A DNA stretch of 64,000 nucleotides from Raineya orbicola. GTDB taxonomy: Bacteria > Bacteroidota > Bacteroidia > Cytophagales > Thermonemataceae. Location of the stretch: positions 1 to 64,000 of the forward strand of contig NZ_NKXO01000001.1 of NCBI RefSeq assembly GCF_002843425.1, in the 5' to 3' direction. How positions within the stretch are numbered: position 1 is the first letter of the stretch; each line of letters opens with the position of its first letter. Under the pieces are notes generated by a model. It was not told the DNA's origin. It searched no databases and was given only the letters and a program-made list of their open reading frames with translations. This document shows, in pieces, positions 8,656 through 16,087 of this stretch. The position numbers and the translations under genes are program-made.

Positions 8656-11550
8656 ATGAAAGCAACATCAACTTTGCTGGTATTTTTGTTTTTAGCTCAT
8701 TGGGGAGCGTATAGCCAAAATTTTTGGCAACCTACCGAAGAAAGTAAAATTCTCCCTAATCCTGCAAAAAAGCGTTTGGTTCTTGCAAATGAGTACAAAG
8801 TGTTTCGCTTGAATGTGAGTGCATTTAAGATTTTTGCTCGTTCTGTACCTATGGAAACTGCTGACCGTAGTTTTTCAGCTCAAAATTCTGATGTAGAAAT
8901 GGATTTCCCGCTTCCCAATGGTACTTTTGCCCGTTTTCGTATAGCTAAAACACCTGTTTTGCACCCTGAATTAGCCGCTCAATTTCCCGAAATACAAACT
9001 TTTGAGGGCTATCGTGTAGGTGGTTATGGTTATGTGCGTTTTGATTTTACTCATCAAGGCTTTCACGCTCTTATTTTTACAGAAGACGGACAAATCTACA
9101 TAGACCCTTACCGCCAAAATGACCAAGAAAACTACATCTGCTACTACAAAAGGCATTTTGTTTCAGATAAAAAAATGAGTTGCACGATTGTAGATGAAGA
9201 TGAACAAGCGGAAAGAATACGCAATTGGCTTCGTGATAACAATGCCCGCCCCGCAGGGGCTCGCTTGCTCACCTACCGAGCGGCTATTGCCACCACAGGG
9301 GAATACACGCAGTTTCACGGAGGTACCGTAGCAGGAGCTTTGAGTGCCGTTACCACTTCGCTCAATAGAGTATCAGGTATCTATCAAATTGAAACTTCTA
9401 TTCGCTTTCAACTAATTTCTAACAATAATACCATTATTTACACCAACCCAGCTACTGACCCTTATACTAACAACAACGGTGGGGCAATGCTCGGGGAAAA
9501 TCAAAGCAATCTTGATGCAGTAATTGGTAATGCAAATTACGACATCGGACACGTGTTCAGTACAGGTGGGGGAGGAATTGCAGGATTAGGCGTAGTTTGT
9601 AGAACAGGGCAAAAGGCAAGAGGCGTTACAGGCAGTGGCTCTCCTGTGGGCGACCCTTTTGATGTAGATTATGTAGCACACGAAATGGGGCATCAGTTTG
9701 GAGCAAACCATACTTTTAATAGCGTGCAAGGTGGTTGTAATGGTAATCGTAGCAGTTCTACTGCTTATGAGCCGGGTAGTGGCATTTGTATAATGGGTTA
9801 TGCGGGTTTGTGTGGTACGGATAATCTTGCCCCCAATAGCATTGAAACTTTTCACGTGATTAGTTTTGATGAAATTTTCGCCTACACACGTGGTTCGGGT
9901 GCTGGTGCCACCTGTCCCAACGATACCCCTAATGGTACTAATTTGCCTCCTGTGCCTTCTGTACCTACGGGAGGCTGGGTAATTCCTATCAATACCCCCT
10001 TTGAACTTACTGGCTCTGCCACAGACCCTAATAGCGATGCTCTGACTTATTGTTGGGAACAATTCAATTTAGGTCCTGCGGGCTCGTTGAGTAGCCCTTC
10101 GGGTGATGCCCCTATTTTTAGGAATTTCTTGCCTTCTACTTCGCCTACACGAACATTCCCTCGTCTTTCGGATATTATTGCTAATAATCTCAATCCTTTG
10201 GGAGAGCGACTGCCTTCTTATACACGTAATCTAACTTTCCGAATGACCGTGAGAGATGGCGTAGGGGGCTATGATTATGCTTCGGTAAGTTTTACAGCCA
10301 ATGCGGCAGCGGGTCCTTTTTTAGTTACTTACCCCAATACAGCTATTACTTGGCAACAAGGCACACGCCAAATGGTAACTTGGGACGTGGCGAACACTCA
10401 TCTTGCCCCTGTCAATTGCCAAAATGTGAATATTCGCCTTTCCACAGATGGGGGTTTTACATATCCGATTGCTTTGGCGACCAATGTTCCTAACAATGGC
10501 TATGCTGAAATTACGGTGCCTGCTGTTACTACTACACAGGCACGTGTGCGTGTAGAAGCCGTAGGCAATATTTTCTTTGATATTTCTAATGCCAATTTTA
10601 CGATAAATAACTCAACTCCTTCGGGAAATCCTTTGGTAAATTCGTTTTCGCCTCCCGACAACAGCACCACAGCCCCTGCCAATACCAACTTGCTGATTTA
10701 TTTTAACCAAAATATTCTCAAAGGTACAGGTAATTTGCTTATCAAGCGTTATGCCAATGATGCTGTGGTAGAAACTATAGATGTAGCTGGCTCGCGGGTG
10801 AGTGTATCGGGTAATGTGGCTACCATTGACCCCGTGAATGATTTAGAGGCAGGAGTTATGTATTATGTAGAAATTCCTAATACGGCTTTCCGAAATGCAA
10901 GCAGTCAGTTTTATGCAGGTACAGCCAACAAAGATACTTGGAATTTCTCAGTTTCCGACAATGTCGCACCAAACATCGTCAGTCTTGAACCTGCTGATAA
11001 TTCGGAAGGCGTGCCACTCAATGCCGATTTGCGTATTACTTTTAGTGAGCCTATCAATAGAGGTACAGGTAGTATTACTATTAGAAGAGCCGATAATTCC
11101 GTAAAGCAAACGCTTTCTGTCAATAATCTTGCTGTAAATGTAAGTGGCAGTATAGTAACTATTGACATCAGCGATTTGGAGCAGAATACAGACTATTACG
11201 TACAAATGCCTGCGGGTACGTTCAGAGATTTAGCAAACAATAACTTTGCAGGTATTACTGATAATACCACTTGGAACTTTTCTACTCGCCCTCCTGCCTC
11301 ATTGGTTATGCTTTCCAAAGGAAAACTCCTCATTTATCCTAATCCAACCAAAGGTAAAATTTTCTTACGTCTGGAAAATGGAATGAACATAGAGAAAGCC
11401 GAAGTTTGGAATGTTTTAGGTCAGAAACTTTCAGATTTGCAAGTAAAAAATAATCAAGAAATATCTTTGGATCATTTGCCTGCGGCAATGTATTTGCTTA
11501 AATTGCAAATATCGGGCGAAATTGTTCAACAAAGAATTATCAAGCAATAG
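8656..11550 (+). CDS. secreted reprolysin-like zinc metalloprotease with T9SS sorting tail
   Basis: A 964-residue secreted protease. It has a signal peptide at 1-20 (GAYSQ), then a propeptide-like region to about 200. The metzincin domain carries the zinc motif HEMGHQFGANH (His 342, 346, 352; catalytic Glu 343) and a Met-turn CIMGYAG. A PKD/Ig-like section follows, then two Big_5/SbsA-type Ig domains starting near PPDNSTT and PADNSEG. The last 80 residues are a Por-type sorting tail (LIYPNPTKGKIFL), which directs export through the type IX system and removal at the surface. It is probably a surface or extracellular protease. Its stop lies one base from the stop of the convergent O-methyltransferase, without a hairpin. 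Confidence 0.9.
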   Translation: MKATSTLLVFLFLAHWGAYSQNFWQPTEESKILPNPAKKRLVLANEYKVFRLNVSAFKIFARSVPMETADRSFSAQNSDVEMDFPLPNGTFARFRIAKTPVLHPELAAQFPEIQTFEGYRVGGYGYVRFDFTHQGFHALIFTEDGQIYIDPYRQNDQENYICYYKRHFVSDKKMSCTIVDEDEQAERIRNWLRDNNARPAGARLLTYRAAIATTGEYTQFHGGTVAGALSAVTTSLNRVSGIYQIETSIRFQLISNNNTIIYTNPATDPYTNNNGGAMLGENQSNLDAVIGNANYDIGHVFSTGGGGIAGLGVVCRTGQKARGVTGSGSPVGDPFDVDYVAHEMGHQFGANHTFNSVQGGCNGNRSSSTAYEPGSGICIMGYAGLCGTDNLAPNSIETFHVISFDEIFAYTRGSGAGATCPNDTPNGTNLPPVPSVPTGGWVIPINTPFELTGSATDPNSDALTYCWEQFNLGPAGSLSSPSGDAPIFRNFLPSTSPTRTFPRLSDIIANNLNPLGERLPSYTRNLTFRMTVRDGVGGYDYASVSFTANAAAGPFLVTYPNTAITWQQGTRQMVTWDVANTHLAPVNCQNVNIRLSTDGGFTYPIALATNVPNNGYAEITVPAVTTTQARVRVEAVGNIFFDISNANFTINNSTPSGNPLVNSFSPPDNSTTAPANTNLLIYFNQNILKGTGNLLIKRYANDAVVETIDVAGSRVSVSGNVATIDPVNDLEAGVMYYVEIPNTAFRNASSQFYAGTANKDTWNFSVSDNVAPNIVSLEPADNSEGVPLNADLRITFSEPINRGTGSITIRRADNSVKQTLSVNNLAVNVSGSIVTIDISDLEQNTDYYVQMPAGTFRDLANNNFAGITDNTTWNFSTRPPASLVMLSKGKLLIYPNPTKGKIFLRLENGMNIEKAEVWNVLGQKLSDLQVKNNQEISLDHLPAAMYLLKLQISGEIVQQRIIKQ

Positions 11551-12273: not shown

Positions 12274-12304
12274 TTGATTTTTTTCCTAAAAATGCTAAAC
12301 TTTG
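12274..12304 (+). promoter_or_regulatory. possible promoter of the interrupted lipoprotein gene
   Basis: TTG at 12274-12276 and TAAACTTTG at 12296-12304 resemble the Bacteroidota -33 and -7 boxes, with a 19-base spacer. The -7 box has one extra base before TTTG. It lies 25 bases before the ancestral ATG at 12329, which fits a leader of normal length. Confidence 0.35.
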
Positions 12305-12342
12305 TGTATAACAAAATTATGAACACTTATGAAACATTTTTT

Positions 12343-13119
12343 GGTTGTGGTAAAGATTGTATGATATTTTTGTAAAAGACAAAGAGGGCGTATTTTTGTA
12401 ATATGTGTGAAGTATTAACAAAAGTAAACTGCCCTCACTGTCAAGGTGCAAAGGTAGTGAAAAATGGTCGTAAAAAAGATGGGACACAAAATTTTTTGTG
12501 TAAATCTTGTGGTAAGCAGTTTCAACAGGCTTATCGGTACAAAGGAGCTGACCCTAAAATTAAACATCTGATAGTGAGTATGTTGCTAAGAAATAGCCGC
12601 ATACGAGATATTGCTATGGTCTTACAAGTCAGTCGTGTTTGTGTGTTAAATCAGCTACTAAAACAGTCTGAAAAGTGTGTGCTAACTCCCAAGCAAAAGC
12701 ACTACAAAAGTGTTCAGATAGACGAATTTTGGTCTTATGTTCAACACAAGAAAAAGCACAAGCGATGGCTTTTCTATGCGTATGCTCCTGAAACGAATGA
12801 GGTCTTAGGCTATGTGATAGGCAATCGCAGTGCTAAAACAATTAAAAAACTACTTCAAATGCTTAAAGATATTGAAATTGAACAGTATTGTACCAACAAT
12901 TGGTCTGCTTTTGCAGAGGTATTAGCAGGGCAAAACCATCAAGTTGGCAAACACCTGACGCGGCATATTGAGGGAGTGAATAATGCTTTACGAGCCAGAA
13001 ATAGACGTTTGGTACGAAAAACTACTTGCTTTTCTAAAAAAGACAAGTATCACGAAGCAGCTATCAAAATTATGTTTCAACAATGGAATTATGACTATCA
13101 TACATTCTAAACCACAGCC
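12343..13119 (+). mobile_element. IS1-family insertion sequence (777 bp)
   Basis: Imperfect terminal repeats of about 22 bases: GGTTGTGGTAAAGATTGTAT on the left, and on the right the reverse complement GGCTGTGGTTTAGAATGTAT. An exact 8-base target duplication, CATTTTTT, lies at 12335-12342 and 13120-13127. The length is close to the classical 768-bp IS1. One transposase ORF fills it. It is inserted in codon 5 of a lipoprotein gene. Confidence 0.93.
12403..13110 (+). CDS. IS1-family transposase, probable catalytic Asp to Asn change
   Basis: A 235-residue transposase of IS1. The N-terminal zinc ribbon has CPHC and CKSC pairs, followed by a helix-turn-helix region and then the DDE core. The first Asp is D107 (QIDEFWSY). 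The Glu is E190 (RHIEGVNNALR), followed by the conserved CFSKK segment. At the second Asp position, where IS1 proteins read T-D-x-W, this copy reads T-N-N-W (N165). Unlike enteric IS1, it needs no frameshift: one ORF covers InsA and InsB. If the Asn is real, the enzyme is likely inactive. Start ATG at 12403. Confidence 0.9.
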   Translation: MCEVLTKVNCPHCQGAKVVKNGRKKDGTQNFLCKSCGKQFQQAYRYKGADPKIKHLIVSMLLRNSRIRDIAMVLQVSRVCVLNQLLKQSEKCVLTPKQKHYKSVQIDEFWSYVQHKKKHKRWLFYAYAPETNEVLGYVIGNRSAKTIKKLLQMLKDIEIEQYCTNNWSAFAEVLAGQNHQVGKHLTRHIEGVNNALRARNRRLVRKTTCFSKKDKYHEAAIKIMFQQWNYDYHTF

Positions 13120-13798
13120 CATTTTTTACTCTTATTTCTAACGACAATTTTGCTTACCACTTGCAAACCTTTTTTAGAAAGAAAGGTAATGCTTGCGACG
13201 CTTCCCATTGAAGAAAAAAACGATAGCACGCTCATTCTGAAAGCTCATCTGATAGACTACAATCCTAAAAAGGCTATTAAAGAATTTGGTTTTGCAATAG
13301 GAATTGATGACTCCACGCAACTGCACACACTTTCTAAAAAGATTTGCACTCAACACCCTGACTCGGTGAACTTGGAACATTTGACCTTGCAATACATTGA
13401 TACCAACCTGCTTTACAGAAATCCAACCCCTGCTACTCTTGTGAGCAAAAAAGTCTATGCTAAAAGCTATGTATGGCTTGAAAATGACCAAATCATTTGG
13501 GGCAATCTGCAAGAAATTGAATTAAGTTGGGGAAGCATTGAGAATATCTCTGCCACAACTACAAGCATTACTTTTGATTATGTGATTGATTGGAGAGAGA
13601 ATTGTCCTGATGTTGTTGATAATAACTATGGACTTGAATATGGTTTTTACTATCACATTCAGCCCAATCCATCGGAAAGTAATTATTTAGGAAAAATTAC
13701 AGAGGCTTTGGGTGATGACTTTCTACTCGCTTGTTTCGCTGAACTTCCACGTTATGTAAAAACAATCACTATTACAGGTTTGCAGCCACGCACTACTT

Positions 13799-15254
13799 AG
13801 TCGTCCCTTAAAAAGTATATTTGAATTTATTTTTCACCCAGAGCAACCTTTGAAGCGAGTAAAAAAGTCTCTGCAAAAATAGGCAAAAAGAAACCTTGTA
13901 GTGGTTCATCAGCCTCTTGAAGTTAAAAGCAGCCGCAGCAAGCATAATGTTGATGTTATCGCCCACGATACCCTTGTAGAAGTTTCGCTTCAATCGGTAG
14001 TCAGTTTTCAAATGTCCAATCACCGCCTCAATACCTGCTCGCTTTCGGTGTAATCGGCTTAATTTGCGTTTCTGGTAGTAGCTTTGTGTCTTATCGGGTG
14101 GGGAGGGTAACAAAATTTCTGTCCCCTCAACATTTTTTTCGCCCCTGTAACCTCTATCCACTTTGGCTTGCTTGGGCAACTTACCCACCAAACGCTTGAC
14201 CTGTTCAAGGGCAGGTCGCAAAGTGTGTCCATCATATTCATTGCGAAATCCCATAGCCCCCACGATTACTCCACTATCAGTAAGCACAATAGAGACCTTA
14301 TTCCCAAATTCATAAGGCTGATGCTCTTTCCCTTTGGAAATACAACAAACATCTACTTCGTGCAATGAATAAATCTTTCCTTTACTATGCCTTTCCTGTG
14401 CCAAGACCTGCTTGTATAATTGCAAATCCTTCTGATACACCGAACCCACAGGCAGTTTCCGCTCCAACTCCCTGACCAGCCTACCTGCTATCGTTTTTAT
14501 CTTTTTATCCGCTTTCCTTGCTCGCTTTTTATTCTTGGGGTGATTGCGAAAACGTTGTGCCCGTTTCAGTTGCTTTAAGGTTTGCTCATAGCTTTGTCTT
14601 AACACCACCTGCTCTTGCTTAGCTATCGCTTGACAGCGTTTGATGATTTTTTGGTGCAATTTAGCGTCAGTGGGAAAGGTGATATTTTTTTCCTGTACCG
14701 TCGTATCTACGCTTACCTGCTCATCTTGGCTGTCTTGACCATTCACTCGAATGCTCTCTTGCAGAATCAATTCTATCCCTTTTTCTCCTATCCTTTTCCT
14801 AAAATGCACTAATTCAGAAGCCTCACAAGGATAACCCGGTACAAAAGATGTCGCCCCACAAAAATATTGGTAGTAAATGTTTTCACTCCACTGCTCTACT
14901 ACACTTTCATCAGAAAGATTGCGGATATGCTTTAACATCAACAAACCCACCATTAGCCGAATAGGCTTGGCTGGTCTGCCATTAGTGCTACTGTACAAAG
15001 GCTCAAATGCCTGCTCAAAGATTGACCAATTGATTTGTTGGGCTAAAACATAAAGCGGATGTTTTTGATTGAGCGTATCGGCAAAACTAAAAAATAAACT
15101 CAACTGATTGGTAGATGCTTTCTTGGGTAGCATAACAAACAATAATTTTGCAGGATTTTTGACACAAATTTACAAAATCTTGCATTTTCTCAAACGAAAA
15201 TACCCAAATAATTTATTGATATTGAAATACTTATACCATTTTTAAGGGACGACT
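13799..15254 (-). mobile_element. IS5-family insertion sequence (about 1456 bp)
   Basis: Perfect 16-base terminal repeats, AGTCGTCCCTTAAAAA at the left and its reverse complement at the right, flank a single transposase gene. With these ends the target duplication is ACTT (13795-13798 and 15255-15258). Because the end sequence and target overlap in a palindrome, a 2-base or 6-base duplication is equally consistent. It is inserted near the 3' end of the copy 1 lipoprotein gene, in antisense orientation. Confidence 0.92.
13808..15142 (-). CDS. IS5-family transposase
   Basis: A 444-residue DDE transposase of the IS5 group. The N-terminal domain holds NGRPAKPIRLMVGLL and the LSDESVVEQWSEN segment. 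The core has the first Asp in QVSVDTTVQEKN, the second in KVDRGYRG, and the Glu in RAGIEAVIGHLK, followed by the basic tail. The reading frame is intact and all three catalytic residues are present, so the element may be mobile. A long Lys/Arg-rich insert lies between the first two Asp residues. Start ATG at 15142. Confidence 0.93.
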   Translation of the reverse strand: MFVMLPKKASTNQLSLFFSFADTLNQKHPLYVLAQQINWSIFEQAFEPLYSSTNGRPAKPIRLMVGLLMLKHIRNLSDESVVEQWSENIYYQYFCGATSFVPGYPCEASELVHFRKRIGEKGIELILQESIRVNGQDSQDEQVSVDTTVQEKNITFPTDAKLHQKIIKRCQAIAKQEQVVLRQSYEQTLKQLKRAQRFRNHPKNKKRARKADKKIKTIAGRLVRELERKLPVGSVYQKDLQLYKQVLAQERHSKGKIYSLHEVDVCCISKGKEHQPYEFGNKVSIVLTDSGVIVGAMGFRNEYDGHTLRPALEQVKRLVGKLPKQAKVDRGYRGEKNVEGTEILLPSPPDKTQSYYQKRKLSRLHRKRAGIEAVIGHLKTDYRLKRNFYKGIVGDNINIMLAAAAFNFKRLMNHYKVSFCLFLQRLFYSLQRLLWVKNKFKYTF

Positions 15255-15328
15255 ACTTACTATATTAGGTACTACGTAATAGTAGGTAATGAAATTCACT
15301 ATGGACAAAGTTTTAGTGCAAGAACACT

Positions 15329-16087
15329 ATGAGAACAAAAATCTTATTCGGTTTTTTTTTGTTTATTCTTACTACCTGCAAACCTTTTTTAGAAAGAAAG
15401 GTAATGCTTGCGACGCTTCCCATTGAAGAGAAAAACGATAGCACGCTCATTCTGAAAGCTCATCTGATAGACTACAATCCTAAAAAGGCTGTTAAAGAAT
15501 TTGGCTTTGCAATAGGAATTGATGACTCCACGCAATTGCACACACTTTCCAAAAAGATTTGCACTCAACACCCCGACTCGGTACATTTAGAGTTTTTAAC
15601 TTTTGAATATGTTGATAGAACTTTAATTAACCAAAACCCCAACCCTGCTACTCTTGTGAGCAAAAAAGTATATGCCAAAAGTTATGTATGGCTTGAAAAT
15701 GACCAAATCATTTGGGGTAGCCTGCAAGAAATTGAATTAAATTGGGGAAGCATTGAGAATATCTCTGCCACAACTACAAGCATTACTTTTGATTATGTGA
15801 TTGATTTGGCAGGGGACTGTTTGAATGCGGCTTTTAATAATTTTAGCATAGAATATGGTTTTTACTATCACATTCAGCCCAATCCATCGGAAAGTAATTA
15901 TTTAGGAAAAATTACAGAAAGCTATGCCGATGACTTACTTTTAGCTTGCCAGTTTGGCGAATCACGTTTTGTAAAAACAATTACCATTGCAGGTTTGCAG
16001 TCTCGTACTACTTACTATATTAGGTACTACGTAAAAGTAGGTAATGAAATTCGCTATGGACAAAGTTTTAGTGTAACTACACAATAA
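15329..16087 (+). CDS. lipoprotein with FN3-like domains (copy 2, intact)
   Basis: A 252-residue predicted lipoprotein: residues 1-17 end in the lipobox LTTC. The rest appears to hold two FN3-like domains, the second ending in the typical TTYYIRYYVKVGNEIRYGQ strand pair. It is a tandem duplicate of the interrupted gene just upstream, with whole blocks nearly identical in DNA and a few short blocks very different. Its ATG overlaps the stop of copy 1, so its translation may once have been coupled to it. Function is unknown; surface exposure is likely for a Bacteroidota lipoprotein of this kind but is not shown by sequence. Confidence 0.85.
   Translation: MRTKILFGFFLFILTTCKPFLERKVMLATLPIEEKNDSTLILKAHLIDYNPKKAVKEFGFAIGIDDSTQLHTLSKKICTQHPDSVHLEFLTFEYVDRTLINQNPNPATLVSKKVYAKSYVWLENDQIIWGSLQEIELNWGSIENISATTTSITFDYVIDLAGDCLNAAFNNFSIEYGFYYHIQPNPSESNYLGKITESYADDLLLACQFGESRFVKTITIAGLQSRTTYYIRYYVKVGNEIRYGQSFSVTTQ

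Follow-up and report, generated by a model that had tools for sequence, protein, structure and literature searches.

The first gene of a tandem lipoprotein pair in Raineya orbicola (copy 1, ATG at 12329) lies in three pieces, split by an IS1-family and an IS5-family element (Table 1). In all likelihood, copy 1 is an ordinary gene inactivated by insertion sequences; we infer that partial conversion between the two copies preceded the break, that the function of copy 1 was lost, and that the downstream copy 2 may have suffered polar effects. The window, the whole stretch of DNA that was analyzed (64 kb), is the start of contig C1 of strain SPSPC-11T, a member of the Cytophagales that is slightly thermophilic and was isolated from a hot spring in Portugal (PMC5982127).

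Table 1. Coordinates of the broken gene, its insertions, its paralogue and related features (window positions unless a locus is named)
Feature	Coordinates	Strand	Description
Putative promoter-like sequence of the ancestral operon	12274..12304	+	TTG (12274-12276), 19-bp spacer, TAAACTTTG (12296-12304)
Copy 1, 5' piece	12329..12342	+	ATGAAACATTTTTT, codons 1 to 5 (part)
Target duplication CATTTTTT, left copy	12335..12342		
IS1-family element	12343..13119	+ (gene's own direction)	777 bp; terminal repeats, 8-bp duplication, NF033558
IS1 transposase	12403..13110	+	235 aa in one open frame; above cut-off for PF03400 and PF03811
Target duplication CATTTTTT, right copy	13120..13127		
Copy 1, middle piece	13128..13798	+	from within codon 5 to the first base of codon 229
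Target duplication ACTT, left copy	13795..13798		
IS5-family element	13799..15254	- (opposite to gene)	1456 bp; perfect 16-bp terminal repeats, NF033578
IS5 transposase	13808..15142	-	444 aa from TTG; in-frame ATG at 15133; PF05598 and PF01609 above cut-off
Likely IS5 transposase promoter	15165..15194	-	TTTG-N18-TAAATTTG, exact consensus match
Target duplication ACTT, right copy	15255..15258		
Copy 1, 3' piece	15259..15332	+	end of codon 229 to TGA
Copy 2	15329..16087	+	uninterrupted tandem paralogue of 252 codons; lipoprotein anchor and two FN3-like domains predicted
Close IS1/IS5 remnants	L045 1525-2560 and L046 1075-1949		

Removal of each element together with one copy of its target duplication joins the pieces of copy 1 into exactly 252 codons. 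A sequence-only reading had proposed one gene broken twice by independent insertions, with a recoverable ancestral frame equal in length to copy 2, and all of this was borne out: the two elements belong to different families, each carries its own target duplication, and copy 2 is likewise 252 codons long. The joined frame has neither stop codon nor frameshift, which makes the insertions young by comparison with the paralogues; it ends in a TGA at 15330-15332 that overlaps the copy 2 start codon at 15329 (ATGA), and its product is 79% identical to that of copy 2 and 58% identical to the orthologue in congener G001. The IS1-family element interrupts the putative signal sequence at codon 5, and today the 5' piece comprises 11 codons that run into this element before a stop. 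The IS5-family element lies in codon 229, which its junction replaces with TAG. A frame between the two insertion sites (13150-13800, 216 aa from a TTG) has no signal peptide and could still be translated.

The predicted join also has a natural counterpart. In congener G001 (locus L033), the corresponding position, flanked by O-methyltransferase and HlyD genes, holds a single, uninterrupted copy of the gene. Across the IS1 site this copy reads ATGAAACATTTTTTACT, the predicted empty site, in agreement with the comparison to relatives that the earlier reading had named as a test; the IS5 join is identical in register to copy 2. These observations bear on whether the arrangement is an artefact in which short-read assembly linked unrelated flanks through repeated insertion sequence copies. 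The draft (3,070,213 bp in 104 contigs) was built with SPAdes from 2x300 MiSeq reads (PMC5982127), and several of its contigs terminate within IS1. A misjoin would nevertheless have to bring together, around each of two different elements, two parts of one gene that are in register and whose target duplications match, and the gene order is the same in relatives; we therefore regard misassembly as extremely unlikely. The locus offers a clean, checkable case of inactivation by insertion sequences, for which a relative supplies a natural empty site; its value is modest. Further upstream in the window (8656-11550), a gene for a 964-aa M12B-like metalloprotease with a type IX secretion tail separates pyruvate kinase from the O-methyltransferase gene; the latter two adjoin in the congener (L033), so the metalloprotease gene was either gained here or lost there.

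Full-length homologues of the lipoprotein gene were found in five other genomes: two congeners (one homologue truncated by a contig end), two members of a related genus, and the Microscillaceae metagenome-assembled genome SKYG84. One genome of the related genus (G006, L041 8624-10437) has its own recent tandem pair with 94% protein identity, suggesting that this lipoprotein family duplicates repeatedly. The SKYG84 homologue (L032 4956-5720), from another family, is as close (57%) as those of the congeners and sits in a different gene neighborhood, and it may reflect horizontal transfer.

Copies 1 and 2 differ from each other as a mosaic. With block borders chosen after inspection, the two are near-identical, silent sites included, at codons 14-84, 113-159, 178-197 and 227-252 (dS 0.15, dN 0.02) and divergent at codons 85-112, 160-177 and 198-226 (dS 1.1, dN 0.34), where they are nearly as far apart as orthologues from two species (against the congener, dS 1.6, dN 0.43). 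The similar blocks place the two copies in a clade with 96-99% support; the divergent blocks give no such clade. Gene conversion is recognized by tracts of silent similarity that are absent against an orthologue, and this is the pattern found here, in blocks drawn after inspection: the comparison with G001 has no mosaic at silent sites. Partial gene conversion between the copies, before the breakage, is apparently the best account of this pattern.

An alternative hypothesis is that no conversion took place and that uneven protein constraint alone gave rise to similar and divergent segments. The variable segments do coincide in part with loops and short helices of the predicted structure, where replacements are expected, and a shuffle test that used silent sites alone and no blocks reached only p = 0.024. 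Protein constraint, however, does not act on silent sites, and in regions defined by replacements only, silent change between the copies was raised near replaced codons (20/65, compared to 9/128 elsewhere; Fisher p = 3e-5, circular-shift p = 0.004), while between copy 1 and the congener the direction was opposite (18/51 near replaced codons, 48/87 elsewhere). We therefore consider constraint alone rather unlikely and retain partial conversion. Within the similar blocks, dN/dS between the copies is about 0.15, suggesting that constraint acted on both during most of the time since they share a history. One could go further and speculate that the pair forms a small diversification system, in which conversion reshuffles codons 85-112, 160-177 and 198-226 between two surface lipoprotein copies and the silenced copy 1 serves copy 2 as an unexpressed donor, a notion to which we give very little credence. 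Should the mosaic hold in more strains, it would be a minor instance in which gene conversion has shaped the lineage-specific lipoproteins of a thermophile that is free-living.

The overlap between the stop codon of copy 1 and the start codon of copy 2 indicates that copy 2 was apparently the second gene of an overlapping operon. Promoters of Bacteroidota follow a -33 TTTG / -7 TAnnTTTG consensus (PMC7366714), which the candidate upstream of copy 1 resembles except that its -7 element is longer by one base, and a strict scan therefore does not list it; the congener orthologue (L033) has a similar TTGA...CTAAATTTTG in the corresponding place. Both inserts, 2.2 kb in total, now separate copy 2 from this promoter-like sequence. 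A scan with the Bacteroidota consensus returned good sites for both transposases and none that would convincingly replace the promoter of copy 2, and scans for sigma-70 promoters and terminators returned no more sites than in shuffled sequence.

The insertions may thus be polar and silence copy 2 as well, in which case the whole operon would be lost or weakened, an outcome compatible with simple inactivation of copy 1. A single transcript, possibly with coupled translation, is implied by the overlap, the insert nearer to copy 2 is in reverse orientation, and the only outward promoter-like match in the IS5-family element (15123-15150) was dropped as a candidate for copy 2, because its spacing is not preserved where the element occurs in two other copies. 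Against this, the frame of copy 2 is intact, and read-through from upstream or an unrecognized promoter could still express it, promoter scans being weak evidence. We regard polar silencing as a serious possibility, though we lean somewhat against it. It weakens the contrast that was drawn between the two copies, one broken and the other intact: the earlier description of the neighboring copy as intact holds for its reading frame, but not clearly for its expression. An intact neighboring frame does not equate to kept function when the break lies upstream in the same operon.

The sequence-only reading had also proposed that loss of copy 1 is tolerated or favored. Tolerance is supported in the one strain examined, but the argument for favored loss is weakened by how these elements are distributed. 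Searches with these two elements only, with contig ends paired, found the IS1 sequence at about 14 places and the IS5 sequence at about 6, many of these being decayed fragments. With about 20 insertions placed uniformly, 0.09 same-gene pairs would be expected genome-wide, so two insertions in one 759-bp gene are uncommon under this model. This speaks for positive selection for the loss (e.g., because the lipoprotein was a phage receptor or its dosage was costly), with the two insertions as its record. The expectation rises to about 0.9 pairs if only one tenth of genes tolerate insertion. Moreover, gaps of about 90 and 140 bp separate remnants of IS1 and IS5 in intergenic sequence on contigs C22 and C4, so clustering is not special to copy 1, and this proximity suggests that the elements gather in permissive spots; insertion hotspots are known (PMC9208149). 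A second insertion into an already dead gene would be neutral, and the frame of the closely related copy 2 has been kept. Selection for the loss is accordingly quite improbable, and loss that was merely tolerated is the reading we keep.

Under simple inactivation, we envisage the following course of events. A small, lineage-restricted lipoprotein gene exists as two tandem, overlapping copies in R. orbicola and as one copy in the congener, and stretches of sequence would have passed between the two R. orbicola copies through partial gene conversion while copy 1 was still whole. Two separate transpositions then struck copy 1, that of the IS1-family element in codon 5 and that of the IS5-family element in codon 229. 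Either alone would be enough to remove the complete product, the former by leaving only the 11-codon stub and the latter by removing the last two predicted β-strands of domain 2. There is a weak hint in the distribution of substitutions that the IS5-family element may have landed first. In the tail beyond it, the copies differ at 5 sites, and every one of these is a replacement derived in copy 1; the count in the similar blocks upstream is 3 replacements and 12 silent changes (Fisher p = 0.0036). Since three of the five tail differences lie in the last four codons, and these may be the duplication junction, this order stays a hint.

Both elements can be placed among known families. The IS1-family element resembles other members (NF033558, PF03400) in its length of 777 bp, 8-bp duplication, GGnTGTGGT-type ends (here imperfect terminal repeats of about 24 bp beginning GGYTGTGGT) and zinc-ribbon plus DDE transposase, which scored 199 bits against NF033558 (cut-off, 100) and 97 bits against PF03400 (cut-off, 24). 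Full-length copies occur on contigs C23 and C28, the former flanked by its own 8-bp target duplication, TATTTTCT. The two overlapping frames joined by -1 frameshifting that are typical of IS1, as in ISCaa4 of Amoebophilus (PMC3196728), were found neither here nor in the intact C23 copy; in both, the transposase is one continuous frame of 235 codons. Because the curated family model scores above its cut-off, we keep the element in the IS1 family and treat the single frame as variation within it, the frameshift pair being typical but not universal or defining. The copy on C28 (L044 1161-1928) has complete ends but no matching target duplication, which suggests that the site was rearranged afterwards or that the draft is misjoined there.

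The second element resembles the IS5 family (NF033578) in its DUF772 plus DDE transposase, which scored 473 bits (cut-off, 275), in its perfect ends (16/16 bp matching) and in its 4-bp duplication, which is seen at the insertion in copy 1 only, as the other copies of the element are too decayed or cut to confirm it. It differs from the classic IS5 group in being large (444 aa, 1456 bp). The next relative is the IS1182 family, whose model gave 134 bits, below its cut-off of 270; its member ISCaa15 (1434 bp, 457 aa; PMC3196728) resembles the element here in size and in the 4-bp duplication.

The encoded protein is likely a lipoprotein, judged by inspection of a hydrophobic start followed by L-T-T-C-K (putative lipoboxes MKHFLLLFLTTILLTTC and MRTKILFGFFLFILTTC). 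What had been called a clean lipobox is better described as a plausible relaxed one, LLTTC in copy 1 and ILTTC in copy 2, as judged by eye. Structural modeling (AlphaFold; pLDDT 79, pTM 0.65) gave an N-terminal helix (residues 3-16) followed by two β-sandwich domains, and the best Foldseek matches were tandem fibronectin-III pairs (E 1e-7), with low TM-scores of 0.23-0.35 over the pair. We predict a protein with two fibronectin-III-like domains and a lipid anchor. No Pfam or NCBIfam model matched it above its own cut-off, the only Pfam hit being PF16656 at 16.8 bits (cut-off, 30), and sequence searches of the PDB and of plasmids returned no match. In its putative lipobox cysteine and two predicted FN3-like β-sandwiches, it resembles the FN3-domain lipoproteins of Bacteroidota, and its C-terminal motif is shared with many larger Cytophagales proteins; unlike those lipoproteins, it has full-length homologues in only the five genomes listed above. 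As for the break itself, copy 1 is like other bacterial pseudogenes made by insertion sequences in being split by complete elements with target duplications and in having a frame that is otherwise undamaged, and it differs from them in that two families struck one gene beside an intact tandem paralogue. The case is unusual in detail, not in kind.
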